The notes under the pieces were generated by a model. The model ran no database searches. It had not been told where the DNA came from and saw nothing but the letters and a program-made list of their open reading frames with translations. A program made the translations under genes and the position numbers. This document shows positions 2,688-25,935 of a stretch of 26,272 nucleotides of DNA, in pieces. The stretch comes from a virus: IMG/VR virus record IMGVR_UViG_3300031862_000038, positions 1 to 26,272 of that record; one strand, written 5' to 3'. Every line of letters begins with the position of its first letter. The stretch's first letter is position 1.

Positions 2688-2929
2688 AATTTTTTATTAT
2701 ATCTTGTTCTAGTGACCAAATTTTAGACACCAGAAAACTTTATGTCTGGGGGGAAACGGAGACTTCAAAATGGATGCCAGAAACTAGTCGAGAGGCTGAA
2801 CGTCGTATTGAATTGTGCCATAAAAAAATGCAATGTCAGATTTGTGATGCGGAAATACATCGAGCAGAAATTGTCAGAATGAAAGAAACATGCCTCAGAA
2901 TGCAGGAGTCTATAAAAAAAGTTAGATAA
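2675..2929 (+). CDS. Hypothetical protein with CxxC motif, 84 aa
   Basis: The ATG at 2675 overlaps the end of the preceding gene by 13 bases; GAG lies upstream, which is weaker than its neighbours' sites. The product begins with a short hydrophobic strand (IKFFIISC). It contains C-Q-I-C near residue 54 and further single cysteines at 11, 48 and 73, and ends in a charged helix. I do not recognise the family. Continuity with the operon and the absence of another candidate in this stretch support it being real, but coding evidence is modest. It is the last gene before the promoter-bearing gap. Confidence 0.45.
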   Translation: MPKIKFFIISCSSDQILDTRKLYVWGETETSKWMPETSREAERRIELCHKKMQCQICDAEIHRAEIVRMKETCLRMQESIKKVR

Positions 2930-3017
2930 GCTTTTCGTTCTGCTCACCCCTTATTTTCAAAAAGATTTTCAAAAACTTTCTTGACATTTCCCATTATAGT
3001 TTTATTCTCAAGCCGAA
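2930..3017 (+). promoter_or_regulatory. Probable late (lysis/structural) sigma70-type promoter
   Basis: This is the only clear gap in the first half of the window. A perfect TTGACA lies at 2981-2986. A TATTCT at 3003-3008, 16 bases further on, matches TATAAT at 4 of 6 positions. Two copies of TTTTCAAAAA (2954-2963 and 2966-2975) sit just upstream of the -35 box, where an A/T-rich UP element would be. The predicted transcript would start near 3015-3018, at or just before the endolysin ATG at 3018. No rho-independent terminator for the upstream operon is evident. The -35 box is convincing; the -10 is weaker. Confidence 0.55.
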
Positions 3018-3473
3018 ATGTCGAGCGATATTTTCGGCAGTCTAAACTTTCCATTAAAACTAAAAAATCTTATTATTCGTCACGAAGGATTCAGAACTCA
3101 CGTATATCTTGATTCTGTTGGCAACCTAACAATCGGCATTGGCCATAACTTGACTGACCTTGGCCTCACCTCCTCGCAAATAAATCTTATATTTGAGGAT
3201 GATCTCCAAAGGGCGATTGATGATGTGGAATCAATATTCCCAGCATTCAAGGATTTTTCTGAAGCTAGATGTGCGGCCCTGATAGATATGATTTTTAACC
3301 TGGGAAAAAGCAGATTTCTGGAGTTTAAAAAAATGATTGAGCTCATAAAAAATGAGGACTGGGGAAAAGCTTCTGACGAGATGCTGGATAGTGAGTGGGC
3401 AACCCAGGTTCCGTTAAGAGTGGCTGAACTTGCAAGGATGGTGAAGTTCGGCACCTGGGATAACGAAAAATAA
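3018..3473 (+). CDS. Endolysin, T4-type lysozyme (GH24)
   Basis: This is a 151-residue muramidase that cleaves the glycan backbone of peptidoglycan for host lysis. The catalytic Glu-Asp-Thr triad has the same spacing as in T4 lysozyme: E23 in RHEGF, D32 in YLDSVG and T38 in NLTIGIGHN (E+9, E+15). A later 'ALIDMIFNLG' helix is also typical. The length fits the family (about 150-165). There is no signal peptide, so export would need the holin. A stop (TAG at 2997) lies upstream and no other start codon lies between, so 3018 is the only ordinary start. It lacks any Shine-Dalgarno sequence. Confidence 0.92.
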   Translation: MSSDIFGSLNFPLKLKNLIIRHEGFRTHVYLDSVGNLTIGIGHNLTDLGLTSSQINLIFEDDLQRAIDDVESIFPAFKDFSEARCAALIDMIFNLGKSRFLEFKKMIELIKNEDWGKASDEMLDSEWATQVPLRVAELARMVKFGTWDNEK

Positions 3474-3474
3474 G

Positions 3475-3684
3475 ATGAAGCGAATGGTACGAAGTTGGCA
3501 CGCTTTTTTAATCGCCCTCGCGTTGATCTCCATCGGATTCGTCTGGACGAGCTTCTATCCAAATTCGCCATATACGACATTCTCGACTGCCATTGGTTTG
3601 ATCTTTGGGGGATATATAGGAAAACGTCTGGCCCAAAAGGCTCAGGCTTTCAATCATAAAACCGGAGACCAAATTGATAAATAA
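3475..3684 (+). CDS. Putative holin, two TM segments, 69 aa
   Basis: The ATG lies directly after the endolysin stop; an in-frame ATG at 3484 would shorten the N-terminus by three residues. The protein has a short basic N-terminus (KRMVRSWH), TM1 at about residues 9-26, a short polar turn with NSP, TM2 at about 34-50 with GLIFGGYIG, and a charged C-terminus. Two-TM size and position next to the endolysin suit a class II-type holin, which forms inner-membrane lesions at the time of lysis. No sequence family is recognised, so the call rests on topology and context. Two possible start methionines near the N-terminus recall dual-start holins, but this is unproven. Confidence 0.6.
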   Translation: MKRMVRSWHAFLIALALISIGFVWTSFYPNSPYTTFSTAIGLIFGGYIGKRLAQKAQAFNHKTGDQIDK

Positions 3685-4399
3685 AATAATCGATTTCATC
3701 AAGAGATATCTGGGACTTGCGGCCGTCATTTTCGTAGGTATCTCGGTTTTCCTTTTCGTTCAGGATATCAGGCAAAAGGCAGTCTACAAAGTTGAGAAGC
3801 AATGGTTTGAAGAGAGATTAAAACAGAAAGAGAGCGACATCAAAAACCTGAATGAGGTGCAGTTGAACTGGATGAATGCGGCTACAATCGAAAAGGCGAA
3901 TGCGGAAAAACAAGCAAAGATAAACAAGGAACTTCAGGAACAACTCAAAAAAATAAACATTGAAAATGAGCAGCAGAAAGTACTGATTAAAAAAATGACT
4001 GCTGATGAGGTAGTGGCTGAGACAAGGAAAAGGTTGGCGCTTTCAGAAACTGATATTTGGAAGAATGGTTTTGGAGTTCAATTTACCTTGGTGGGGGCAA
4101 AGAAGAATCTGCTCAGGCTTGCCGATGCTGATTATTTCAGTCTTGTGAGGGAACCAAAACTTCTTGAAATTATCGGCGGGAAAGACAAGGAAATATCTGA
4201 TCTTAGAAATGCTATTTTCAACGATGAGAAAGCCTTGACTGTATGTGATGAGATAAAGTTGAAATATGATCAAATCAAGATTGATTATGCTGGCATTCTG
4301 AAGAAATCGGAGAAGCAGGCGAAATGGCTTAACATTTCTTACGGTACAACAGCAATCGCAGCAATTGTGACGGTTTTATATATTTTGTTAAGGAAGTAA
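3674..4399 (+). CDS. Doubly membrane-anchored coiled-coil protein, possible spanin
   Basis: The start is a TTG at 3674, seven bases after GGAG and inside the end of the holin gene. The 241-residue product has TM1 at about 12-30, then a long Lys/Glu/Gln-rich coiled coil (about 40-120), a compact region (about 120-165), a second helical segment, and TM2 at about 218-239 followed by RK. Both ends would be cytoplasmic, leaving about 185 residues in the periplasm. In this position after endolysin and holin, lambdoid phages carry the Rz/Rz1 spanin, which joins inner and outer membranes. Known u-spanins have an N-terminal lipobox instead of TM1. I see no lipobox and no embedded Rz1-type gene, so the role is tentative. 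Confidence 0.5.
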   Translation: MINKIIDFIKRYLGLAAVIFVGISVFLFVQDIRQKAVYKVEKQWFEERLKQKESDIKNLNEVQLNWMNAATIEKANAEKQAKINKELQEQLKKINIENEQQKVLIKKMTADEVVAETRKRLALSETDIWKNGFGVQFTLVGAKKNLLRLADADYFSLVREPKLLEIIGGKDKEISDLRNAIFNDEKALTVCDEIKLKYDQIKIDYAGILKKSEKQAKWLNISYGTTAIAAIVTVLYILLRK

Positions 4400-4415
4400 A
4401 AGCAAGGAAAAAATA

Positions 4416-5471
4416 ATGAAAGTGGCGTGGGACAAAGCGAAGATTGATATTTTGCGTCAACTTGCAGAATCGGGCATGCGCTATCAGGATATTGCCAAGC
4501 AGATGGGACTGCGGTTTAAGCAAATAGAATGTGCGGCTTCACGTTATAAAATTAGAAAACCAACTTGGAACTGGAACGAAGAACGCAGAAGAGACATTCT
4601 GGAACTGCGAATTCGGGGTAAAACATATCTCGAAATAGCAAACGAACTATCCAAAAAGTATAATCGAAAACTCAATGGCGAAATGATTAAAAGAGTCGCC
4701 TTATCATATGAAATTCCAGACCAACTGCTTAATACCCCAGATGACATTAAGTTTTACGATTCGCCCGTTCTGCCAATGGACGATTATATGATTTCTTGCG
4801 ATTATCATTCGCCCTATTATGGCGAGCTTTGGATTAATAGATATTTGACTATGGCACAAAAATACGGGATCAAAAAGCAAATTGTTGTAGGTGATCTTTT
4901 TGATATGGATTTTGCCAAAAGCCATCCAATTACAGATGGTGAGGAGAGATCATTTATTGACGAAGAAGAAAAACACAGTGATCCTTTAATTCGAGCGCTT
5001 TCCTGGTTTGATGAGACCTGGCTGGTATGTGGAAATCATGAAACGAGAATAAGTCGAATTACAGAAGCAAGGGTTCAATTCAGTCAACTTGTTAGCTATT
5101 TCTGCAAAGATTTGGTTCAAAAAAAATTTAATTTTACAGTTTTTGATAAAGTTCAAATCGGAGAGAAATTTCTTCTTGTTCACCCAAAAAGTTATAGCCA
5201 GATATCTGGAGCTACCGCTGTTCGCCTAGCTGAAAAATACCATAAACACATCCTCGCTGCCCATGGCCACTTCTGTGCCTTTCGCTGGGATAGGTCAGGT
5301 AAATATATGGGAATAGATATCGGCGGGATGTTTGACCAGAGAAAAATTGCTTATGTAAATCTATTGAGCACAACTCACCCAGCTTGGAATCCGGGCTTTT
5401 CAATGATTTACCAGGGTTTTCCTTATCTTTTTCATGGAGGCACCGATTTTTCATTCTGGCTTGAGAGGTAA
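4416..5471 (+). CDS. Two-HTH plus calcineurin-like metallophosphoesterase fusion
   Basis: A 351-residue protein. Residues 8-48 and 55-98 look like two successive helix-turn-helix units (YQDIAKQMGL...IECAASRYKIRK; YLEIANELSKKYNR...RVALSYEI). From residue 124 on there is a complete metallophosphoesterase core: D129 and H131 (CDYH), G159-D160 with D163 (GDLFD), N207-H208-E209 (GNHE), H256 (LVHP) and H283/H285 (HGHF). These residues bind two metals in the family, whose members act as protein phosphatases, nucleotidases or Mre11/SbcD-type nucleases. The DNA-binding half suggests DNA as the substrate. It sits between lysis genes and the terminase pair, so a role near packaging is possible but unproven. 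Confidence 0.75.
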   Translation: MKVAWDKAKIDILRQLAESGMRYQDIAKQMGLRFKQIECAASRYKIRKPTWNWNEERRRDILELRIRGKTYLEIANELSKKYNRKLNGEMIKRVALSYEIPDQLLNTPDDIKFYDSPVLPMDDYMISCDYHSPYYGELWINRYLTMAQKYGIKKQIVVGDLFDMDFAKSHPITDGEERSFIDEEEKHSDPLIRALSWFDETWLVCGNHETRISRITEARVQFSQLVSYFCKDLVQKKFNFTVFDKVQIGEKFLLVHPKSYSQISGATAVRLAEKYHKHILAAHGHFCAFRWDRSGKYMGIDIGGMFDQRKIAYVNLLSTTHPAWNPGFSMIYQGFPYLFHGGTDFSFWLER

Positions 5472-5477
5472 ACTATC

Positions 5478-5774
5478 ATGAAGGTTCTTAGAAGCTCAAT
5501 AAAAATGAGAAATGACAGAATTGTAGTGGTTGAACAGGCAATCGTAAAACTCGAAGCATTGACAAATGAGAAGATTGGAAACATAAACAAAGAAATGGCC
5601 GGAATAAAAAGTGATATCAAAAACCTTAAAGATAACGAGATTTTGCACCTTGCAAAGGACATAGACAAGATAAAAGACGAAATCGTAAAACTGAAACTCT
5701 GGCAAGCAAAAGTGATGGGCGCAATAGGAATTGTTTGGATTTTAATTCAAATAGCATTGAAATTATGGAAATAA
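5478..5774 (+). CDS. XhlA-like holin/haemolysin-type protein, 98 aa
   Basis: The ATG lies 6 bases after the previous stop; AGAGG is about 9 bases upstream. Residues about 15-72 form a coiled coil with regular hydrophobic positions. They are followed by LKLWQAKVMGAIG and one TM helix (about 79-96) ending in KLWK. This coiled coil plus single C-terminal TM plan, with a Trp before the membrane, matches XhlA proteins, which assist lysis in phages and PBSX-type elements. It may be a second holin component alongside the protein at 3475. Topology is clear; the family call is probable. Confidence 0.6.
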   Translation: MKVLRSSIKMRNDRIVVVEQAIVKLEALTNEKIGNINKEMAGIKSDIKNLKDNEILHLAKDIDKIKDEIVKLKLWQAKVMGAIGIVWILIQIALKLWK

Positions 5775-5935
5775 AATTTATGGCACTTATGAAAAAGTTA
5801 GAAATTAAATCGCTTGTATCTCTAGATCGGGGAGGTAGGTTGCTTTTAGAGTTCAATGCTGACGAAGAGACAATCGCTGGATTAAATCGAATCATGTCGG
5901 CTGAGGATGAAGTGGAGGTGAAAATAGAAAAATGA
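5765..5935 (+). CDS. Small conserved phage protein, 56 aa
   Basis: The ATG at 5765 overlaps the end of the XhlA-like gene; ATGs at 5780 and 5789 are alternatives, and an upstream TTG at 5735 is unlikely. The sequence LVSLDRGGRLLLEFNADEET, then GLNRIM and VEVKIEK, is a beta-strand/helix pattern I know from small phage proteins located just before terminase genes. No function is known for it. It ends in an ATGA overlap with the candidate small terminase gene. Confidence 0.55.
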   Translation: MEIKFMALMKKLEIKSLVSLDRGGRLLLEFNADEETIAGLNRIMSAEDEVEVKIEK

Positions 5936-6243
5936 AACACTGCAATAAAGTAAAAGCACTTGTGGGCCGACCTTTTACCAAGGGCGATCCACGTATCAAT
6001 AGAAAACTTGGGCCAAGAACAAAAGAGGCTGCCAGTTTTGCTGAGCTATATAAAAATGCACTCGCCAAAAAAATAACACCGGATGAATTAGCTATAATTA
6101 TCATTAAATGGGCAAAGATAGGAAGACCTTGGGCAATCGAAATGCTTAGAGATGATTTAGTTGGGAAACCAACTCAACCATTAGAAATTACAGGCGGATT
6201 AAAATTTGAATTTGGCGAAAATGGGATGAACGAAAAAGAATGA
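5932..6243 (+). CDS. Candidate small terminase subunit / DUF5681-like, 103 aa
   Basis: Starts in an ATGA overlap and ends in an ATGA overlap with the large terminase. The N-terminus has GRPFTKGDPRINRKLGPR, the 'GxP-x-KGxPRxN' lead of DUF5681-like phage proteins. This is followed by helices and a closing GKPTQPLEITGG, a tail shared with many small proteins immediately upstream of terminase genes. The small terminase recognises phage DNA and starts packaging. Position supports this role, but I see no clear HTH, so DUF5681-like is the safer family name. Confidence 0.6.
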   Translation: MKHCNKVKALVGRPFTKGDPRINRKLGPRTKEAASFAELYKNALAKKITPDELAIIIIKWAKIGRPWAIEMLRDDLVGKPTQPLEITGGLKFEFGENGMNEKE

Positions 6244-7439
6244 AAGTTATAGGCTTTAATCCACGCGAAAACCAAAAAGAGATATTTTGCAATCCTGCAC
6301 GTTTTCTTACGGTCGATGCTGGGCGACGGTGGGGAAAAACAATAAGTGGATTAAACTGGGTTCTTGAAGGAATCTGCAAAGAAGGGGGACCAGTTTGGTG
6401 GGTAGCCCCCATTTATGCCCAAAGCAAAATGGCATATCGCCGACTTTTGAATGCAGCCAAAAAAGGCGGAGCTGACAAGGCTATAAAATCAAAATCTGAC
6501 TCTGAACTCAGGATAGAATTTATTAACGATGCTGTTTTGGAATTCAAAAGCGCCGACAATTATGAGAATCTTCGGGGTGAAGGCCTTAAACGAGTAATTG
6601 TGGATGAGGCAGCCCGAGTTAAAAAAGAAGTATTTGAAGAAATCATAAGACCGGCAATTTCTGATACGGCAGGTCGAGTGCTTTTTTTATCAACCCCAAA
6701 GGGAAAAAATTGGTTTTATGATCTTTGGACTCGTGGCCAGGATCCTCTTCAAAAAGATTTTAAGTCATGGAAATTCCCGACTTCAGATAATCCCAAGGTT
6801 CCCCCTGAGGATATAGATCAGGCAAGACAAAGCCTTCCTGCGAATGTATTCAGCCAGGAATATCTTGCTGAGTTTCTTGAAAATCAGGCGGGAGTTTTTA
6901 GAAATGTTAAAGAATGTGCCCATTCCAAAAGAGAAAGTCCAAATCTTAAAGAGAAAAAATATTATGCTGGCCTTGATATTGCCCGACTCAGAGATTTTAC
7001 GGTTTTTACGATGTTAGATAATAGGGCAAACCAAATCTTTAAAGATCGATTTAACATCCTTGATTGGGCAGTTCAAAAACAAAGAATTATCACAATTTGC
7101 CAGGATTATAAACCTGCAGTACTTATGGATTCAACCGGGATAGGCGATCCCATCTATGATGATCTTCAGCGAGCTCGTCTTAATATCGAAGGTTATAAAT
7201 TTACACAAGATTCGAAAAAAAAGCTCATTGAATTCCTTATGTTATCATTTGAGAAAAAAGCGATCAATATTCTCGATGATCCCGATCAGACAAACGAACT
7301 CGAGATGTTTGAATATCAATTAGGCCAGTCGGGAATTGTCCATTATTCCGCGCCAGATGGATATCATGATGATTGCGTAATCGCCTTGGCACTTGCGAAT
7401 TGGAAACTTCATCATGGTCCGGAGTTCAGGGTGGCATGA
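6240..7439 (+). CDS. terL: Terminase large subunit (ATPase and nuclease)
   Basis: A 399-residue packaging motor that cuts concatemeric DNA and pumps it into the prohead. The ATPase half shows Walker A at residues 27-34 (AGRRWGKT, K33), Walker B at 119-123 (VIVDE, D122, E123) and a coupling motif LFLSTPKG at 148-155. The RNase H-like nuclease half shows D246 (GLDIA), D297 (LMDSTG) and the D377/D378 pair (GYHDD). All catalytic positions are present. The length is at the short end for the family. It starts by ATGA overlap with the candidate small subunit and ends in an ATGA overlap with the portal gene. Packaging mode cannot be told from the sequence alone. Confidence 0.95.
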   Translation: MKVIGFNPRENQKEIFCNPARFLTVDAGRRWGKTISGLNWVLEGICKEGGPVWWVAPIYAQSKMAYRRLLNAAKKGGADKAIKSKSDSELRIEFINDAVLEFKSADNYENLRGEGLKRVIVDEAARVKKEVFEEIIRPAISDTAGRVLFLSTPKGKNWFYDLWTRGQDPLQKDFKSWKFPTSDNPKVPPEDIDQARQSLPANVFSQEYLAEFLENQAGVFRNVKECAHSKRESPNLKEKKYYAGLDIARLRDFTVFTMLDNRANQIFKDRFNILDWAVQKQRIITICQDYKPAVLMDSTGIGDPIYDDLQRARLNIEGYKFTQDSKKKLIEFLMLSFEKKAINILDDPDQTNELEMFEYQLGQSGIVHYSAPDGYHDDCVIALALANWKLHHGPEFRVA

Positions 7440-9496
7440 AAATATTCAACTTCCTCAAGAAGCAGAGCCGGACTTGGGGCGCGGTACTTTATGCGCTTGG
7501 CTCGAAAATCCTCTGGACGCCAAAGGATTATGCGAACTTAGCAAAGGCCGGCTATCAATCCTGCATGGATGCCTATGCGTGCATAAAGCTCATCGCCGAA
7601 ACGACCGCACAAATCCCATGGATCTTATACCAGAAGCAAAGAGACGGGAGTCTGCAAGAGGTCGAGGAGCATGAACTATTGAATCTAATGAAACGCCCGA
7701 ACCCTCAAGATGGAGGAGTAAAATTCATTGAGAAAGTTCTCAAATATCTTTTGATTGCAGGCAATAGTTATATCGAGAAAATAGGTCCAAACAATGGGCC
7801 GCCAAAAGAGTTATATTCACTTCGCCCCGACCGTATGAAAATAATAGCGGGGAATTCAACGCAATTGGTTTCCGGATATGAATATTATATCGCGGGGCAA
7901 AAACAGACTTTTAATTTTGATGAGATTTTGCACCTGAAATTCTTTCATCCTACCAACGATTTTTATGGCCTGAGTCCGATGGAGGTTGCGGCCAAAGGAA
8001 TCGACATCTCGAACTTATCTCAGGAATGGAATGCCAAGCTTTTGCAAAATGATATGCGGCCTCCCGGATCCTTCATGTTCAAGGGCAAGATGGACCAAGA
8101 GACATTTGACATCATGGCAAAACGCATAAAAGAAAAATATGCTGGAGCTGAAAAAGCCGGAGAGCCACTTATCTTGCAGGGAACTGAGGGAATAGAGTGG
8201 CAGCAAAATTCCATTTCTCCTCATGATATGGATTGGTTGACTGCAGATAAGATGACCACAAGAAAGATTTGCCGCGTCTATGGAGTTTCCCCAGAGCTTA
8301 TCGGAGACTCGGAAAATAAGACATATTCGAATTATCAGGAAGCCCGCCTCGCCCTTTATATGGAGACGGATATACCACTGGCAGGCTGGCTGCGGGATGA
8401 GTTGAATAACTGGCTCACGCCGAAATTTGGGGACAATTTATTGCTCGAACTTAACCTTGACCAAATAGATGCCTTACAACAGAAGCGCAATGAGGCATAC
8501 AACCGAATGGTAAACGCGTGGTGGTTAACGGTGAATCAGAAATTGGCGGAATGCGGGTATTCAGAAATAGGCCCGGAAGGAGACGTTCTTTATATTCCAA
8601 TGGGTCTTATAGCTGTACCCATTAACCAAAGGCAGAAAATCAAAATGGCAAAAAAGGGCCGAGTAATAAAACCAGCCTTATTGACCAAAGGTTATTGGAA
8701 GGCGCCTGATCGGAAAGATATGCTTTGGAAAAACCTGGCTTCGAGAATAACGGCGAAGGAGAAATCTTTCAAGGCCGGAGTTGAATCTTTTCTGAGAAGG
8801 CAGGCCAGGGAGGCAAAGGACAAGATAGACCAGGCAATGGGTGTCAGCTATATCAATAAAGTTGAATTGCTTAATTCAGACAAAGAGCTCAAGGAATATG
8901 TCGAAAAGTTCATGCCGCAATATCTGTGGCTTTTCAAAACCGCGGGCGATGCAGGCATGGATGTCTCTGAAGGGAAGCTCTATGAATTCTCGGAGGAAAA
9001 GAAAGATGCGGCTGGACGATTTGAGTTCAGCCAGGAATTAAAGGAAGAACTTGAACGCCTGGTCATGAACTCGGCCAAGTACATAAACGAGGAGACCGTC
9101 AAAAAGATGCTCGAGATAATTGAGCAAGCGGAGGCTGAGGATTGGACGATTGAGGAACTTAGTCATGAATTTTGGGAGAAATTCAAGGACCTTTCAATTT
9201 CAAGGGCAGAGAGGATTGCTCGGACGGAGGCGGGCAAGGTCGAGAATTATGGCAACCTCGAAGGCTACAAACAGATGCCTTTCGTTGAGCGCAAAGGCTG
9301 GCTCTGTTCCTTCGTTAAGGACTCGAGGCCCGAGCACATGGATGCTGATAGGCGGTATTCGGACAACCCAATACCGCTTGATGAGCCGTTCGTTGTGGGT
9401 GGGGAAGAACTGCAATATCCGGGTGATCCTGCAGGATCCGCTGGGAATATTTGCAATTGCTCGTGCGGAACTTATCCCGAGATAGGAGAGGAATAA
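7436..9496 (+). CDS. Portal protein (HK97 family) fused to Mu-F-like minor head domain
   Basis: The ATG at 7436 overlaps the terminase stop and follows GGAG; the frame is open further upstream inside the terminase gene but has no better start. The 686-residue product begins with a normal HK97 portal (about residues 1-390). Markers are YACIKLIAETTAQIPW and, near residue 280, RVYGVSPELIGDS followed by YSNYQEARL. The portal ring forms the DNA channel at the head vertex. From about 568 to the end a second domain has AERIARTEAGKVEN, a KGWLCSFVKDSRPEHMDADR region and a terminal N-C-S-C-G-T-Y, typical of Mu gpF-like minor head proteins. These are separate genes in many phages, so this is a natural fusion that puts both at the portal vertex. 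Confidence 0.85.
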   Translation: MKIFNFLKKQSRTWGAVLYALGSKILWTPKDYANLAKAGYQSCMDAYACIKLIAETTAQIPWILYQKQRDGSLQEVEEHELLNLMKRPNPQDGGVKFIEKVLKYLLIAGNSYIEKIGPNNGPPKELYSLRPDRMKIIAGNSTQLVSGYEYYIAGQKQTFNFDEILHLKFFHPTNDFYGLSPMEVAAKGIDISNLSQEWNAKLLQNDMRPPGSFMFKGKMDQETFDIMAKRIKEKYAGAEKAGEPLILQGTEGIEWQQNSISPHDMDWLTADKMTTRKICRVYGVSPELIGDSENKTYSNYQEARLALYMETDIPLAGWLRDELNNWLTPKFGDNLLLELNLDQIDALQQKRNEAYNRMVNAWWLTVNQKLAECGYSEIGPEGDVLYIPMGLIAVPINQRQKIKMAKKGRVIKPALLTKGYWKAPDRKDMLWKNLASRITAKEKSFKAGVESFLRRQAREAKDKIDQAMGVSYINKVELLNSDKELKEYVEKFMPQYLWLFKTAGDAGMDVSEGKLYEFSEEKKDAAGRFEFSQELKEELERLVMNSAKYINEETVKKMLEIIEQAEAEDWTIEELSHEFWEKFKDLSISRAERIARTEAGKVENYGNLEGYKQMPFVERKGWLCSFVKDSRPEHMDADRRYSDNPIPLDEPFVVGGEELQYPGDPAGSAGNICNCSCGTYPEIGEE

Positions 9497-15859: not shown

Positions 15860-16181
15860 ACTTTGGAACATGCTGACCGAGGAGCATAGCCACGAGGTGG
15901 GCGAGCCGGAGGAGGAGAGAGAGGCATGTGCGAATTGTGCCTTGGAAAGAGAACTCAAGCGTCTTTCAAGATTCGAGGCGGCGGCTGTCAGTTGGTATTA
16001 TGGCAATGTGAGCCAGTTCACCTTGGACTGCGGACTCATGGCAGACCTTTTCCAGGACCTTAAGCTTGAAGGTGTAGACAAGGAGCTTTTCCTCAGGGCG
16101 ATGGCCATGATCCACAGGACGGAGCAGAAAATACAGAATGAGAGAATGAGACTGGAAATGGAGAAACGAAAAAATGGCTGA
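15828..16181 (+). CDS. Tail assembly chaperone, frameshift extension (gpT-type)
   Basis: This frame is open from before the shift and continues with LGAYLGLRLELWNMLTEE, an acidic stretch, CANCALERELKRL and a helical end. A -1 shift at 15825-15831 joins residue 118 of the short form to it, giving a fused product of about 235 residues. An internal ATG at 15870 exists but lacks a ribosome binding site and would lose the first residues. The last bases overlap the tape measure start by 8. The C-x2-C near its middle is unusual for gpT, and its meaning is unknown. Confidence 0.75.
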   Translation, partial: KLGAYLGLRLELWNMLTEEHSHEVGEPEEEREACANCALERELKRLSRFEAAAVSWYYGNVSQFTLDCGLMADLFQDLKLEGVDKELFLRAMAMIHRTEQKIQNERMRLEMEKRKNG

Positions 16182-18101: not shown

Positions 18102-19565
18102 ATGAAAAAGCCGCGCATAATCTATGACGATTTCTGGCGGAAGGGGACGATATTTGACAAGTGCTCCCAGCACCCGCAGTTTCCTGTGGAGGACACGCAG
18201 GTTGACACAAGGCTACAATTCTGGCGGACAAGATATGGGGTCGGATCCGGGAATGGATTATTTGTGTTAAGTGCAACAGACAACTATCTGGATTTCAAGG
18301 AAGGCACTGGCAATGAAATATCAATAGAATTTTATGATGAAAACCCCCCATATCATTCTGGGGCATCTTTAGCTGCACTAATCCAGACAAGAATGAGAAA
18401 CCAGGGAACTCTGACCTATAATGTGACCTATTCAGAGAGCACAGGAAAATTTACTATCTCTGCCGGATCGACTTTCTCTTTGCTCTGGAATACGGGCACA
18501 CATAAATCAATTAATCTTGCGAATATGCTGGGATTTTCAAAAGCAGCCGATGATACTGGAGGTACAAGTTATACCTCGGATTACAAGCGCATCCATTATC
18601 CGTGCGCCTATGCCTCGAATGATCTGGGTTCCAGCAAAGAAATAAATTTCGTCGCAATCTTGGGCCACAACATTAGCCAAAACTTCGGCCCGGAATTGAT
18701 AACCAACGGCGATTTCGTTACCGACCTGACAGGATGGACGGGCACCAATTGGGCATGGTCTGCGGGAACCGCACTTCATAGTGCTGGGGCGACTGCGGCA
18801 TTGACCCAGGCGGCTTGTCCTGCGGTCATAGGGAAAAAATACAAGGTTGCTTATACTATAAGCGGCAGAACCGCCGGAACACTTACTTTGTCTTTTGGAG
18901 GCATCTCAGGCAGTGCAAAAAACGACAATGGCACATACATCGAGTATATTATAGCCACCTCTACGGATGCAATCGCCTTCACTCCATCGACTGATTTTAA
19001 TGGCGCCCTCGATAATATTAGCGTGAAAGAGATGGTCTTAATCACTTTCATCACGGCCAGCGATTATGAATTTACTACGGACTTAACTGAAACCGAGATC
19101 ACGAATAATCTCTATAATATTTTCTTTTTCCTCACAAGTTCCGTGACGAATCGCTACGTCAAAATCAGGATTGCTGATCCGACGAATACTCAAGCATTTA
19201 TTCAGGTCGGGCATATTACCCTGGGTTATTATTGGGAGCTCGAAAAAGGCGTCGGCAAAAGCTATGATGATGGCAAGGAATCCTTCTCCTCGGTTGACTT
19301 CTCGGATTCGATGGTCTCCTACGCTCAGGAGAAGCCGACACTCGGGAAAAAAACGCTGCCTATCAAAGGAATAAGCACTTCGACAAAAGAGACCATACTA
19401 CTTTTCTACGAGGAGGTGGACATAATCAAGGCGTTCGTGATCTGTCTCGACTACGAAACACCGAATACGGATTCCTACTGGGTCCAGAATGTCGAACTCG
19501 TGAGCCCGCAATACCAGAACTATGATAACTGGGACTGGGCGCTTGTGATCCGAGAGGTCTTATAA
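18102..19565 (+). CDS. Distal tail-type protein with inserted carbohydrate-binding-like domain
   Basis: A 487-residue protein directly after the tape measure. Residues about 50-165 form a beta-rich module seen in phage tail proteins (EISIEFYDENPPYHSG, then TYNVTYSESTGKFTISAG, then GTSYTSDY). Residues about 196-310 look like a CBM4_9-type jelly roll: GPELITNGDF, then TGWTG, YKVAYTISGR and a closing LDNISV. Flanking parts (KEINFVAILGHNIS before; ASDYEF...RYVKIRIADPTNTQAFIQVG after) read like one split discoidin-like strand domain, so the CBM-like unit appears inserted within it. The C-terminus has LVIREV. Such proteins form the tail tip and the extra domains may bind host glycans. The Dit name is by position. 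Confidence 0.6.
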   Translation: MKKPRIIYDDFWRKGTIFDKCSQHPQFPVEDTQVDTRLQFWRTRYGVGSGNGLFVLSATDNYLDFKEGTGNEISIEFYDENPPYHSGASLAALIQTRMRNQGTLTYNVTYSESTGKFTISAGSTFSLLWNTGTHKSINLANMLGFSKAADDTGGTSYTSDYKRIHYPCAYASNDLGSSKEINFVAILGHNISQNFGPELITNGDFVTDLTGWTGTNWAWSAGTALHSAGATAALTQAACPAVIGKKYKVAYTISGRTAGTLTLSFGGISGSAKNDNGTYIEYIIATSTDAIAFTPSTDFNGALDNISVKEMVLITFITASDYEFTTDLTETEITNNLYNIFFFLTSSVTNRYVKIRIADPTNTQAFIQVGHITLGYYWELEKGVGKSYDDGKESFSSVDFSDSMVSYAQEKPTLGKKTLPIKGISTSTKETILLFYEEVDIIKAFVICLDYETPNTDSYWVQNVELVSPQYQNYDNWDWALVIREVL

Positions 19566-22054
19566 TGTCCCCTCCGGCCGCCCCATCCAATCTCACCGCC
19601 ACTGCGGTTTCTATAACACAAATCGACCTAGCCTGGACAAATAATGCAATATATTATCAAGGCATTTGGATCTATCGGAGGCCGGCGGGGGGAAGCTGGT
19701 CTCAGCTAAATATAGTCGATTATCCCCAGCATACTTATCAGGATAATACTTGTGCCGCAGGAACGAGATATTTTTATCGCGTACGGGGGAAAACAGACAA
19801 TGAATTCAGTAATTATTCAAATGAGGCAGATGAGACTACATTCAAAGATGAACCCCCAGCCGCTCCATCTGGGCTTGCTCTTACTCCGATTTCTATTTCC
19901 CAAATCGACCTAGCCTGGACAAATAATGCAGTCTATAATGAGGGAATATATATCTATCGCAAACTTCCAGGAGGAAGTTGGTCTGAATTAATTATCGTCC
20001 AGTATCCTCAGCACACTTTTAGTAGTTATAATCTGAATGAAGGTACCAGATATGTTTATCGTGTGCGAGGAAAGAGAGACGGCGGATATTCCGAAGCGAA
20101 CCGGTTCAGTGCTTTTTCAAATGAGCCGGATGCAGCCACATTCCTGGACGAGCCGACTGGCCTTACTGCAACAGCTATCAATTGTTCGACAATCAATGTA
20201 GCTTGGACTAATCAAGGTACATATTCATCCATAAAAATCGAAAGAAGAAAAGGCGGAGGCACATGGGAGCAAATACAACAGAGACCAGGGTCTGAGCAAT
20301 CTTGGCTAGATGAGGGACTCGAAATATATACAACTTATCATTATCGCGTACGAGGTTATTGTGGTATTCCAGATTATGTTAATTCGCCATATTCAAACGA
20401 AGATTGGGATGTAACTCCCTCAATAGAAAGCCCCCAAAATCTTCATCAGGGAAGCCCGGCCTATAATTATGTCGAACTTCTTTGGACGAATACCGAGTCC
20501 CCGGACTATGTTGAGGTCCAAAGGAGGGTTGCTGGCGAAACGGATTGGAATACCATTAAGATCTTCGAATGGTCAGGGCAAAGCAGTTATACCGACCAAA
20601 ACAACATCAAGGAAGGCTATGCTTATCACTACAAAATCCGCTATAAAATAGCCGGCAACTGGGGGCCTTTTTCCTCATCATTCTTAGCGGCGACTGTTCT
20701 CAGGCCGCCCTACAATGTCAAGACGACAATCCTCTCCCCAGAGAAGATACAGGTAACATGGTCAAATCATGTAACTTATGCTACGAAGCTCTATCTAGAG
20801 CGCAGGAAAGACCTGACCGGCCCCTGGGAGAGCTTGGACGACTGGGGCCTCCACATTGCCGGCAGCCAGACCTCGGCAATCGATGTTTGGGCGGAACCTG
20901 GCCACACTTTTGAATATCGGCTTTATGCTTATCTCGGTTCTCCCCATTTCACCACATCTGATTATTCCAACGAGGCGGGCGAGTTCATTGGACTCCAGCC
21001 ACCATCGAATCTGCAGGCTTCATGTCTTTCCCCAACGACTGTTAAGTTGACATGGAAAGACAATAGTTGGGAGGAGTATGGGTTTGATATCTACCGCGAC
21101 GGCGCGTCGATTCACCAGACCGGGCCGAACACGACCGAATGGATTGATACAACTGTGGCCGCATCAACCTGGTACACCTACAAGGTTACGGCATTCACCA
21201 CGACAGTCAGTGCGTTTTCAAACGAGGTGAGGATCTATACCGCCTATCCGCCCAACGCCCCGTCAAATCTGACCGCATCGTCTGTGAGCACATCTCAGAT
21301 CAACCTTGATTGGCAGGATAACGAGATCTACGAGAACGACTACCACATAGAGGAAAGTTCAAACGGCGTCGATTTCACAGAAATTGCGACGGTCGGGCAG
21401 AATGTCACTCATTATGAGAGAACGGGCCTAGGTTCCGATCAGCTCCGGTATTATCGCGTGCGGGCGCACAACTCGGCCGGCTATTCGGACTACTCAAACA
21501 TAGCATCGGCACGGACGCTCGCGGCAATTGCGCAGGCCACAAACCTTCAGGCATTTCCTTTCTCGGATACTAAGATTGAGATAACTTTCAAAGACAACTC
21601 ATCCGAGGAGGATGGGCATAGCGTGGAGAGGAAGTTGGATGGTGGACAGTATGCTGAAATCACATTCCTCCCGCCCAACGTGGAATACCTCTGCGATTCG
21701 GGGTTAGTCAAGAATTCAAAATATTGGTATCGCGTGCGGCCCAAGCAGGGCGCGCAATATGCCAGTTATTCGGAAGAGGTTTTTGCTTGGACGATGAATG
21801 ATCCTACCGCACCAACCGGTCTTCATGTTGTAGATCACACGGACACGAAAATTCGGATTGCCTGGACAGGTGCCGAAGGAGCAGCCGGATATAAAATTGA
21901 GAAATCTTTGAATGGAACTGATTATACGGAAATCGCAAAAATCGATGGAAGCATAACGGAATATCTTGCTACTGGGCTTTCTCCTGGAACTGAATATTGG
22001 TTCAGAGTTCGGGCTTACACAATTGTCGGAAATTCCGACTATTGCTACTTATAA
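19565..22054 (+). CDS. Tail protein of nine fibronectin type III domains
   Basis: The ATG overlaps the preceding stop (TAATG). The 829 residues consist almost entirely of FN3 domains. Nine copies start near residues 3, 97, 196, 289, 379, 476, 561, 653 and 745. Each has a P-x-N/G-L lead, a W-T/x-N/D strand and a Y-x-x-R/K-V-R-x turn, for example PSNLTATAVS, IDLAWTNN and YRVRG. FN3 modules are common in phage tail proteins and are thought to bind surface carbohydrates or serve as spacers. There is no catalytic domain and no signal peptide. Copies 1, 2 and 7 are most alike, suggesting duplication. The gene lies between a Dit-like and a hub-like protein. Confidence 0.85.
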   Translation: MSPPAAPSNLTATAVSITQIDLAWTNNAIYYQGIWIYRRPAGGSWSQLNIVDYPQHTYQDNTCAAGTRYFYRVRGKTDNEFSNYSNEADETTFKDEPPAAPSGLALTPISISQIDLAWTNNAVYNEGIYIYRKLPGGSWSELIIVQYPQHTFSSYNLNEGTRYVYRVRGKRDGGYSEANRFSAFSNEPDAATFLDEPTGLTATAINCSTINVAWTNQGTYSSIKIERRKGGGTWEQIQQRPGSEQSWLDEGLEIYTTYHYRVRGYCGIPDYVNSPYSNEDWDVTPSIESPQNLHQGSPAYNYVELLWTNTESPDYVEVQRRVAGETDWNTIKIFEWSGQSSYTDQNNIKEGYAYHYKIRYKIAGNWGPFSSSFLAATVLRPPYNVKTTILSPEKIQVTWSNHVTYATKLYLERRKDLTGPWESLDDWGLHIAGSQTSAIDVWAEPGHTFEYRLYAYLGSPHFTTSDYSNEAGEFIGLQPPSNLQASCLSPTTVKLTWKDNSWEEYGFDIYRDGASIHQTGPNTTEWIDTTVAASTWYTYKVTAFTTTVSAFSNEVRIYTAYPPNAPSNLTASSVSTSQINLDWQDNEIYENDYHIEESSNGVDFTEIATVGQNVTHYERTGLGSDQLRYYRVRAHNSAGYSDYSNIASARTLAAIAQATNLQAFPFSDTKIEITFKDNSSEEDGHSVERKLDGGQYAEITFLPPNVEYLCDSGLVKNSKYWYRVRPKQGAQYASYSEEVFAWTMNDPTAPTGLHVVDHTDTKIRIAWTGAEGAAGYKIEKSLNGTDYTEIAKIDGSITEYLATGLSPGTEYWFRVRAYTIVGNSDYCYL
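19619..19930 (+). repeat. Exact 30-bp direct repeat in FN3 copies 1 and 2
   Basis: A 30-base identical block (starting CAAATCGACCTAGCC) occurs at 19619-19648 and 19901-19930, exactly 282 bases apart, which is 94 codons and one FN3 domain. The shared protein is QIDLAWTNNA. Bases on both sides differ. The remaining FN3 domains do not share this block, so it indicates recent duplication or gene conversion of the first unit, or recombination between copies. Confidence 0.9.
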
Positions 22055-22071
22055 TGAGGTAAATATAGAAT

Positions 22072-25000
22072 ATGGCGATTTATTATATCGATTTTACTTT
22101 AGGCAACGATAACAACAGTGGTCTCTCTGAAACTCTGGCTTGGAAAACCTTATCTAAAGTCAGGGGTGAGCAGGCCAATTTTAATCCGGGTGATTCTATC
22201 CTTTTTAAACGAGGAGAAACCTGGACATGCGGAGACTCGGATGATTGGCTGAGGCTCAGTAAGTCTGGAAGCTCTGGCAATCCAATCACTTATGGAGCCT
22301 ATGGTTCGGGCAATCTGCCCATTATAGACTGCAATGATATTGCCGATTATGGAATCGCAAGCTGGACGGATAATATATCCTGGTTGGTTTTTGAGGATTT
22401 TGAGATTCGTCATGCATATTGGCATGGCATAGCCTTCAACCTACCTCATTCTCACATCACCTGTAAACGATGCCTTGTTCATGAATCCAGTAGTTCCGGT
22501 ATTGTCATCGGTATGGGTAGTTATGCGACGCTGGAAGATTGTGACGTTGATACTCCAGGCTTGTTTGGAATCATAATAACTGGAGACCCCACCTATCATC
22601 AAAGCCACACACTTATTCATGGATGCAGGGTTTGGTCATCCGAAGGTGATGGAATCACTTTGCACGACGATGACTATGGCAATCCTATCGGTGATGATCA
22701 TACGATTGAATATTGTGTTGTTTGGAATTGCACTTATCCGTCACTTTCCTACAGGTTTCTTTCTGGAACTGGTATAGTCTCAAGAGGAAACTCAAGTCGG
22801 GATCCCAGTCTTCCAACAACTCCTCTTACTTATTATGTAGATGCCACGCTTGGCAATGATGGCAATACCGGCTTATCTGAAACACAGGCTTGGAAGACAC
22901 TAACTAAAGTTAGGTCTTATCAGGAAAATTTAAGTTCTGGAGATTCTGTCCTTTTCAAATGCGGCGAAACATGGGTGAGCGGCGATGCCGATGATACCCT
23001 GAGAGTTCTTACTTCGGGAGAAGCTGGGAAGCCTATTACTTATGGCGCTTATGGCAACGGAGCCAAGCCAGTCATAGATTGTAATCATGTGGGTGCCACA
23101 GGAATTCTGAGTTGGGCCGGCAGCATTGCTTATTTGGTTTTTAAAGATATAGAAATTCGCCATTCTGTTCAGCAGGGTGCTGGATTTGATTTGCCTCATA
23201 ATCATCTTAATCTTAGACGAATTCTTGTTCACGAGACTGACAATAATAATGGAATGATATTCAGCAAAGGTTCTTATGTCACCATAGAAGATTGTGATAT
23301 CGATAGTCCTGGTTTGGGCGGGATAGTTATAGTGGGTGATGCTGTAGTACACCAACATGATACGATTATCAAAAGATGTAGGATTTGGGATGCTGATAGT
23401 GACGGCATTACTTTACATACTGACGATTCGCAGAACGATATTGGAGCTAACCACCTAATTGAGGGTTGTACTGTCTGGGGATGCGGAGAGCAAGCTTTTG
23501 ATTTCATTTCTGGCACTAATATTCTTTTAAAGAACTGCGAAAGCTATGACAATGTCACCAGCGGTATCATCGTTGGCTCTGACGTGGGCGGCTCCGTTTC
23601 AAACGTTACTATTCAAGGTCATTACAGCCATGATGAGGGGACGGGAATCTATCTTCAATATTGCAGCGATATAAAGATTCAATATTCTATCCTCAAAAAT
23701 GGTTCCAGGAATGTCCGCCTGGATATTAATGTTAATAATGTAAATATTTATAACAATATTCTCTACGCCACATTGGGAGGAAGTTATCATATTTATGAAG
23801 CTTGGACAGCAACCGGTACTGGCAGAAATATCAAGAACAATATTTTTATAGGCGACAACGTGGATCATAGGTATGTTTATTACTGGCCTGGAGCGAATCC
23901 CAATAACACAAACGCCGTCTATGACTATAATCTTTATTGGCGACAGACAGGAGGGCCTGATGACGATAATTGGTGGCTGATAACAGATGCACCAGGCAGT
24001 TGTGGCTGGACAAATTGGAAGGCTCTCTGGAATCAAGATGCACATGGTATGTTTTGTGATCCCGAGGTTGTTAATCCTGGAATAGATTTTCATCCAAAGT
24101 CTGGCTCTCCCTGTATTGATGCAGGCATTGACGTTGGACTTACTGAGGACAAAGAGGGCAGGGAAGTCCCTCAACGTTTAGGCGTTGATATTGGAGTTTT
24201 CGAATTTCCAGATTGCCGCACGGATGATCAATATATTGAGACGGATTTTGATCGTTTCATGAGGAACCCGAATATCAAGCCAATTTTCCTTCTGGAAATA
24301 AAGACGAAAATGAGGCTCTTAGGATTTGGCCTAAGTAATGGGCAAACTTATACCTATGAGCTTTTGATACCTGACCGAGGGATTGATTTCGAGAAGCTTT
24401 GGGAGAATGGGCAAGAATATTCTAAAAAAAATTCAATAAGCGAAGTAGAGGCTACGGCCTCCAGTTTTTATTTTGATTTTTATGGCAGGATGCTTTACAT
24501 ACACACCTCGCTGGGGATAGCTCCGCTTAACTATTTCATCGAGGGTTCGTTTTGGCTTTATTTTACGAATTATCAGGATGGTGAGATTGTCTTCAACGAT
24601 AAATATTATTTTCCATTTTTTAAAACGGAAAACATTCCTGATATATCTCAGGAGATCAAGGCATACTATGAAGGCAGTTTTACAATCTCTTCAGGAACCA
24701 TAAGTTTATTCAATCCTAAAATCGGAGGAGAATATTTCTTTGACAAGAAGTATGACCGCTATTTCTGGAAAAACTCCTTTGTCCAAATGAAGATTGGAAA
24801 GCCTGGATTCTCCTATTCGCAATATAAGAATTTCTTTTCGGCATTAATTGATTCTTATGAACTCGATGATAGGAAAATGACGTTCAATTTAGTTGATTCC
24901 CGGGAGGCAATCAACGTCGATCTGCCTTTTAATAAACTTTGGAAAAAAAACTATCCCATGATGGCTGCCGAATTAGAAGGCACTGTGCTTCCGGTGCTTT

Positions 25001-25935
25001 TCGGGCCGGTGACGAATGCATTGCTTTATTGTATCGATGAAGTCGCGAGAAAAAAATTCATCTTCCATGATGGCCCGATTAAGGCCGTAAATGCTGTCAA
25101 AAAAAATGGGATTCCTCTTGTGGAAGGAACAGATTATTTTGCGAACCTTCGCGATTCGATCATAGTGTTTTCGAATAATATCACTATAACCGAACAGGAC
25201 CAGGTAACAATAGATTTCCAAGGTAAGACGAACCTTGCAGATGAGCTCATTTCTAATGGCGCTGACATTTATTTCTATATACTGAAAAACTTTCTGGGGT
25301 TGACGGTTCCTGAGATTCACGTAGATTCCATCGAAGAGACGAAGGTTGCTCAATCAAGGACCTTGAGCGTTTATCTCTATTCAGAAAAATCATCTGGCGA
25401 CATCATCCGGTCAATCGAGCATTCCGTTGAAGCCTGCTCCTTTCAGGATGCCAATGGCAAGATCGGACTCAAGACGAATTCCGATACACCCGATTCTGGC
25501 GCGCGATATATCATGAGCCACCAGGTTTTTGATTTCAGGATGAAATATGATCCGGCCTCGATATACAAAAAAATCCAGGTTTATTATGGCGAAGATCCAC
25601 TTACCCAAAATTTCCTTGTAGAGGAAAGAGTGAGCAATCAGCTCTGGTGGAAATACAAAGAAAAGAAGTCTTTCGAGATATATGCCTATTTGATTTTACA
25701 AAGCGAGGCCGCAGAACTTGCATCAAACATTTTGAAAAAACTTGATAAGAGCTATCCAAATTTCGTTGTACCCGCGATTCTCTATGGCTGTCAAGCTGGC
25801 GACCTCTTTTATTTTTCAAGGGACCGATATTACAATTCCGACGGATTCGCGAATAATATCGTCATGAGAATTCTCGGCATCAAAAAATTGATCTCATCAA
25901 GTAGAACGGAAATAACAGCGGAGGTTGTGGAATGA
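22072..25935 (+). CDS. Duplicated right-handed beta-helix fused to tail-hub-like C-terminus, 1287 aa
   Basis: The ATG at 22072 has GAGG about 12 bases upstream. Residues 4-240 form a first beta-helix unit (YYIDFTLGND, AWKTLSKVRG, FEIRHAYW, DGITLHDDD, IEYCVVWNC). A linker near 240-252 leads to a second, longer copy (YYVDATLGND, AWKTLTKVRS, IEIRHSVQ, DGITLHTDD, IEGCTVWGC) extending to about 712. It closes with SPCIDAGIDVG and GVDIGVFEF, as in choice-of-anchor Q type beta-helix proteins. Beta-helix proteins of phages are usually tailspikes or depolymerases that degrade host glycans. Residues about 713-1287 start with IKPIFLLEIKTKM and have the size and position of a tail hub (Tal-like) protein; no peptidase is visible. 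The catalytic residues of the helix cannot be assigned. Confidence 0.65.
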   Translation: MAIYYIDFTLGNDNNSGLSETLAWKTLSKVRGEQANFNPGDSILFKRGETWTCGDSDDWLRLSKSGSSGNPITYGAYGSGNLPIIDCNDIADYGIASWTDNISWLVFEDFEIRHAYWHGIAFNLPHSHITCKRCLVHESSSSGIVIGMGSYATLEDCDVDTPGLFGIIITGDPTYHQSHTLIHGCRVWSSEGDGITLHDDDYGNPIGDDHTIEYCVVWNCTYPSLSYRFLSGTGIVSRGNSSRDPSLPTTPLTYYVDATLGNDGNTGLSETQAWKTLTKVRSYQENLSSGDSVLFKCGETWVSGDADDTLRVLTSGEAGKPITYGAYGNGAKPVIDCNHVGATGILSWAGSIAYLVFKDIEIRHSVQQGAGFDLPHNHLNLRRILVHETDNNNGMIFSKGSYVTIEDCDIDSPGLGGIVIVGDAVVHQHDTIIKRCRIWDADSDGITLHTDDSQNDIGANHLIEGCTVWGCGEQAFDFISGTNILLKNCESYDNVTSGIIVGSDVGGSVSNVTIQGHYSHDEGTGIYLQYCSDIKIQYSILKNGSRNVRLDINVNNVNIYNNILYATLGGSYHIYEAWTATGTGRNIKNNIFIGDNVDHRYVYYWPGANPNNTNAVYDYNLYWRQTGGPDDDNWWLITDAPGSCGWTNWKALWNQDAHGMFCDPEVVNPGIDFHPKSGSPCIDAGIDVGLTEDKEGREVPQRLGVDIGVFEFPDCRTDDQYIETDFDRFMRNPNIKPIFLLEIKTKMRLLGFGLSNGQTYTYELLIPDRGIDFEKLWENGQEYSKKNSISEVEATASSFYFDFYGRMLYIHTSLGIAPLNYFIEGSFWLYFTNYQDGEIVFNDKYYFPFFKTENIPDISQEIKAYYEGSFTISSGTISLFNPKIGGEYFFDKKYDRYFWKNSFVQMKIGKPGFSYSQYKNFFSALIDSYELDDRKMTFNLVDSREAINVDLPFNKLWKKNYPMMAAELEGTVLPVLFGPVTNALLYCIDEVARKKFIFHDGPIKAVNAVKKNGIPLVEGTDYFANLRDSIIVFSNNITITEQDQVTIDFQGKTNLADELISNGADIYFYILKNFLGLTVPEIHVDSIEETKVAQSRTLSVYLYSEKSSGDIIRSIEHSVEACSFQDANGKIGLKTNSDTPDSGARYIMSHQVFDFRMKYDPASIYKKIQVYYGEDPLTQNFLVEERVSNQLWWKYKEKKSFEIYAYLILQSEAAELASNILKKLDKSYPNFVVPAILYGCQAGDLFYFSRDRYYNSDGFANNIVMRILGIKKLISSSRTEITAEVVE

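Follow-up and report, generated by a model that had tools for sequence, protein, structure and literature searches.

A 1287-residue protein encoded by an uncultivated bacterial virus is probably the tail hub of a siphovirus-like phage, decorated at its N-terminus by a duplicated beta-helix. The source is one contig (IMG/VR IMGVR_UViG_3300031862_000038), of which we analysed the whole stretch of 26,272 nucleotides, hereafter the window. The ORF (22072-25935, plus strand) is open from end to end, and places a beta-helix region ahead of a distinct C-terminal module in one protein, as the first-pass annotation had proposed. That annotation did not consider the origin of the arrangement: judging from the comparison with relatives, the beta-helix is a derived insertion, and the usual N-terminal partner of the hub is an array of FN3 domains. 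The fusion of the beta-helix with the hub is known from this single contig.

An insertion at the FN3/hub border

We used L004, the closest relative, as the reference for the breakpoints (its hub is 75% identical in amino acids, its C-terminal FN3 part 92%). In a blastn comparison, positions 19904-22044 and 24220-25229 of the window are colinear with L004, and nothing matches between them. Relative to L004, the cassette (Table 1) replaces about 20-25 bp of the FN3/hub linker. The border in L004 reads NSDYC-EPVSQITDSQ-YIESDF and its last FN3 domain continues with ..NSDYCEPVSQITDSQYIESDF.., while the window has NSDYCYL and a stop, 17 nt, ATG and the beta-helix, and then CRTDDQ-YIETDF. The 829-aa FN3 ORF thus ends in NSDYCYL, with its last FN3 domain lacking the final strand.

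Table 1. Features of the locus (window coordinates, unless a relative is named)
Feature	Position	Strand	Evidence
FN3-array protein, 829 aa	19565..22054	+	Pfam fn3 2.1e-32; C-terminal part 92% identical to L004
Inserted cassette, ~2.17 kb	22045..24219	+	blastn against L004: interval without match
Stop/ribosome-binding site/start junction	22052..22074	+	TAA, GAGGT, TAG, ATG
Beta-helix copy 1, residues 1-244: N-cap and short right-handed beta-helix domain	22072..22803	+	AlphaFold2, copy alignment
Pro-rich inter-copy linker (..PSLPTTPL..)	22804..22827	+	AlphaFold2 uncertain over residues 228-247
Beta-helix copy 2 and ~220-residue extension, residues 253-712	22828..24207	+	AlphaFold2, Foldseek, profile
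Choice-of-anchor-Q closing motif, residues 673-712	24088..24207	+	NCBIfam NF041518, 27.4 bits
Tail-hub-like module, residues 721-1287, phrog_8917 family	24232..25932	+	phrog_8917 1e-10; 25 distinct relatives
Beta-rich hub subdomain, V-x-NG-x-L-x-x-GTDYxxD-x-x-x-x-IxF pattern	24904..25227	+	pLDDT ~60-91
Stand-alone beta-helix genes upstream of TMP, same hub group	L097 (reverse complement) 2855-6304; L098:642-2354; L099:4096-6111

Between the two ORFs lie the TAA of the FN3 ORF, a GAGGT (22056-22060), an in-frame TAG (22066-22068) and the ATG at 22072. Because this TAG closes the beta-helix frame ahead of the ATG, a fusion of the FN3 ORF to the beta-helix by programmed frameshift or readthrough is blocked; the beta-helix ORF would begin by translation restart after the FN3 stop. 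All of the relatives (25/25) have the FN3 array joined to the hub in one ORF, with the border intact and no beta-helix, which makes an insertion in the lineage of the window the simplest reading. The alignments show the cassette exactly at the FN3/hub border, where it has split the ancestral FN3-hub gene and supplied a new stop codon, ribosome-binding site and start codon. The FN3 ORF is the N-terminal half of this gene, now displaced. Compared with L004, FN3, TMP and hub are all conserved at the protein level far above the synonymous level.

Identity of the hub module

Relatives of the hub were collected in four scans of viral contigs (IMG/VR), with the whole module or parts of it. These gave 26 contigs, two of them near-identical, hence 25 distinct relatives. 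The module begins a few residues past the last FN3 strand, typically where ..TTLAA gives way to YxxTxFE.. in these relatives; the border of L083 was assigned by eye, because an insert in the hub N-terminus displaces the computed start. All nine module sequences scanned match phrog_8917, a family of unknown function.

We consider it quite likely that residues 721-1287 are a tail hub. In the window, TMP starts at 16174, a 487-aa gene at 18102, the FN3 ORF at 19565 and the beta-helix/hub ORF at 22072. The order TMP, 250-510-aa gene, FN3-hub gene is found in every relative contig showing these genes. Siphophages have the gene order TMP-Dit-Tal (PMC7291167), and the 487-aa gene may be the Dit. Comparison of the hub profile with T5 pb3, one of several targets, by hhalign gave 361 colinear columns at a probability of 2.7%; against column-shuffled profiles, the score was equalled by 3/497 and the length by 0/497. 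After adding the 25 relatives the match spans 53 columns, in an unchanged register and with a score of 33.1. A control comparison of lambda J with pb3 reached 97.6%. The profile test is insensitive and its negatives mean little, as a profile of RC1-type J, which is annotated as J, fails against pb3 as well.

The hub module has no significant match to lambda J, RC1-type J, TP901-1 Tal, Pfam or PDB. Identification by fold failed, the AlphaFold2 model being poor (pLDDT 46) and Foldseek returning nothing significant; the sole well-modelled part covers model residues 229-336 (pLDDT ~60-91). We found no relatives of the hub in cultured phages by tblastn, nor in GTDB genomes by a pattern scan. The earlier description of the C-terminal part as hub-like is supported, though not proven: gene order and the weak colinear match to pb3 agree with it, while lambda J, TP901-1 Tal, Pfam and PDB provide no match.

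Some observations concern neighbouring proteins. Residues 182-308 of the 487-aa protein (window 18102-19565) form a domain that also occurs in J-like tail proteins of Rhodobacter, Rhodovulum and Thiobacimonas phages and in an Edwardsiella phage; among the Dit-position genes of the relatives (250-510 aa), some apparently lack it. The hub-module profile weakly matches two beta-helix ORFs, L016:4426-7941 (3.7e-6) and L017:912-3338 (8.7e-5), apparently via a common ..DxxNxxLYIxTxGxxPxxY.. stretch. Further upstream, window 7373-9496 encodes a portal fusion, a portal protein with matches to head-morphogenesis families in its C-terminal part.

An old duplication and a GH136-like fold

Pfam Beta_helix (PF13229) covers residues 1-712 (E 1.5e-23), the choice_anch_Q family of NCBIfam scores above its cut-off of 25 bits, and the AlphaFold2 model of the region (pLDDT 75) has right-handed beta-helix domains at 3-227 and from 253 to ~680; the linker between them is modelled at low confidence over residues 228-247. 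These three sources concur with the first-pass annotation, which had described a beta-helix over residues 1-712 with a choice-of-anchor-Q ending. It had also noticed a tandem duplication inside the beta-helix, and this is confirmed: residues 4-244 and 254-493 are identical at 131/239 positions (55%), with a score of 727 against a best of 70 among 200 shuffles. Copy 1 is indeed the shorter, ending at around residue 245, and copy 2 runs ~220 residues beyond. Codon-aligned, the copies are 59% identical in DNA and their longest shared exact repeat is 11 bp, which rules out a recent duplication or an assembly repeat. Their synonymous differences are saturated, and they are sisters in a tree of 31 beta-helix sequences (support 100/99). 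The duplication is therefore real, old and lineage-specific.

In simple searches, GH136 lacto-N-biosidases were matched by the N-cap alone. A profile of the 15-sequence beta-helix family aligns with GH136 over its full length (7v6m, E 5e-35, over 1-398). Foldseek of the beta-helix model ranked GH136 first, at 15-18% identity to its structures, followed by rhamnogalacturonan lyase (PL9), PL6 lyases and mannuronan epimerases. The similarity to GH136 (LnbX 5gqc, TnX 7v6m, ErLnb136 6kqs) comprises the N-cap sequence, the right-handed beta-helix, the closing motif and the full-length alignment. The differences are that the catalytic motif DGxAWDAD is absent as such, that the N-cap occurs as a tandem copy and that the protein is phage-borne. 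At 77.5 bits, the window misses the curated LnbX equivalog cut-off (2500 bits), so we do not file it as a GH136 member and call it GH136-like in fold alone. General family scans reported no GH136-I/LnbY partner domain, which GH136 activity requires, in the window proteins scanned.

The acid/base and nucleophile of ErLnb136, D568/D575, are seven residues apart (PMC7335108). Both copies of the beta-helix have a D-x6-D with the spacing of this pair, within DGITLHxD (D193/D200 and D444/D451); we noted the likeness by eye, and in the profile alignment the motif does not fall on the GH136 site, making it a candidate catalytic pair only. Acidic positions number 23 common to both copies, nine in copy 2 alone and eight in copy 1 alone. 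The suggestion that one copy is a binder and the other an enzyme is not borne out, given the 23 common positions and the D-x6-D present in both. Nor is a loss of catalytic acids from copy 1 supported. Copy 2 has both the longer helix and the closing motif and is the likelier putative active domain; copy 1 would be a short additional domain.

Relatives of the beta-helix family occur in many phage contigs, mostly as separate proteins, and also in bacteria and archaea. A search of cultured phages returned distant cap matches alone, in unannotated fecal phage records. Three phages of the hub group (G011, G012 and G013; Table 1) encode a member of this family as a gene of its own, located upstream of TMP, and the one of L098 starts with a signal-peptide-like sequence. 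The 31-sequence tree gives no support to a descent of the window beta-helix from these stand-alone ones. Another phage beta-helix of the family (L018:1508-3553) carries a C-terminal, different tail-like domain of ~145 aa, an independent N-terminal beta-helix fusion.

Function, alternatives and comparison with known tail tips

The beta-helix has taken the place of the FN3 array on the hub, leaving the array as a separate protein. In the mechanism that we propose, a hub trimer would close the tail tube and, with three chains per tip, present six beta-helix domains. From this position they would bind a host surface glycan and perhaps, less surely, cut it before DNA ejection. The insertion point and the split gene are read directly from the sequences, and the fold class from prediction; presence in the virion, the trimer with its three chains per tip, the glycan target and catalysis are all inferred. 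Glycan binding at the tip is the most likely role, and cleavage is possible. We find it doubtful that the hub is itself a polysaccharide-degrading enzyme, i.e. a GH136-like beta-helix, doubled at its N-cap, built covalently into a DNA-gating trimer, with the FN3 array released; if true, glycan cutting at the tip could couple mechanically to hub opening.

A real insertion whose beta-helix acts as a lectin-like adhesin, binding glycans without catalysis, has close to an even chance. Other inserts near the hub of relatives resemble binding modules (CBM5/12-like in L007/L010, propeller-like in L005, CBM-like in L058/L083), the equivalog cut-off is missed, and the 'GITIHxH' coil of relatives lacks the Asp of the window. 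However, the closest folds are enzymes (GH136, PL9, PL6), and D-x6-D is retained in both copies despite 45% divergence. It is unlikely that residues 721-1287 are another tail protein, such as a baseplate wedge or fibre base. The missing significant profile or fold match to solved hubs would fit this, but the FN3-hub gene is the only hub-sized one of the two large genes after TMP in relatives, and the pb3 match is colinear.

The remaining alternatives question the locus itself. A cassette that damaged a non-essential tip protein and left the locus decaying seems very improbable: the final strand of the last FN3 domain is gone, yet every ORF is open and the conserved residues are retained in both beta-helix copies and in the hub. 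Furthermore, amino-acid changes in FN3 and hub relative to L004 are far fewer than synonymous ones, with the caveat that the greater part of this branch may be older than the insertion. Least probable of all is an assembly chimera with a beta-helix from elsewhere. The fusion is indeed seen in one contig only, but a chimera would require the assembly to have gone wrong twice, at homologous points within a single gene, with a 3' join that is in frame and a 5' join that has a ribosome-binding site and a start. The cassette also has a GC content of 0.42-0.44, inside the range of the contig, and its longest exact repeat with the rest of the contig is 13 bp.

The reading that we prefer, a decorated hub, resembles the 'evolved' Dit/Tal of siphophages, where carbohydrate-binding modules were added to Dit or to gp27-like Tal (PMC7291167, PMC10688798). 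In both, a carbohydrate-handling module joins the tail-tip core through domain insertion: the module, with its putative carbohydrate function, is present in the window and absent at the border of the likely hub in 25/25 relatives. Carbohydrate modules on Dit/Tal are thus already known (PMC7291167), but known extensions of Tal lie at the C-terminus, and the modules known as inserts are small CBMs. What is new is an N-terminal, duplicated, enzyme-type right-handed beta-helix that replaces the FN3 array and splits the gene. Phage tailspikes and depolymerases also have a beta-helix glycan module in a (probable) virion protein, but are separate, whereas here the module covalently fronts a likely hub. 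T5 pb3 and lambda gpJ share with the window module the position after TMP and the Dit-position gene, and pb3 the weak colinear profile match, but confident sequence homology is lacking. In pb3 and gpJ, FN3 domains lie C-terminal to the hub core; in the hub family of the window they are N-terminal. We found no beta-helix/hub fusion described in the open-access literature searched.

The insertion has the look of a natural exchange of the sugar-handling tip of the virus, a tail-tip domain swap caught in one lineage while 25 relatives keep the uninterrupted state. It shows that a beta-helix of the enzyme type, normally a protein of its own, can be joined to the front of a likely hub. If confirmed, the fusion would offer a way to ask whether a hub accepts large modules at its N-terminus and whether DNA ejection can be triggered by glycan processing at the hub.

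Other modules lie around the hub in relatives. CBM5/12-like domains occur near it in L007 and L010, below the Pfam cut-off, and by eye we noted CBM-like inserts in L058, L009 and L083 and a C-terminal addition in L060. The CBM-like domain of L083:3577-6735 lies inside the hub module, in its N-terminal part. In L005:1-280, tandem propeller-like repeats (NGKLYEWNGTDAWVEKAPKLGAEIYIYSLAVYNGKLYGGT) immediately precede the final FN3 domain of the FN3-hub gene and are nearly identical to each other in amino acids.
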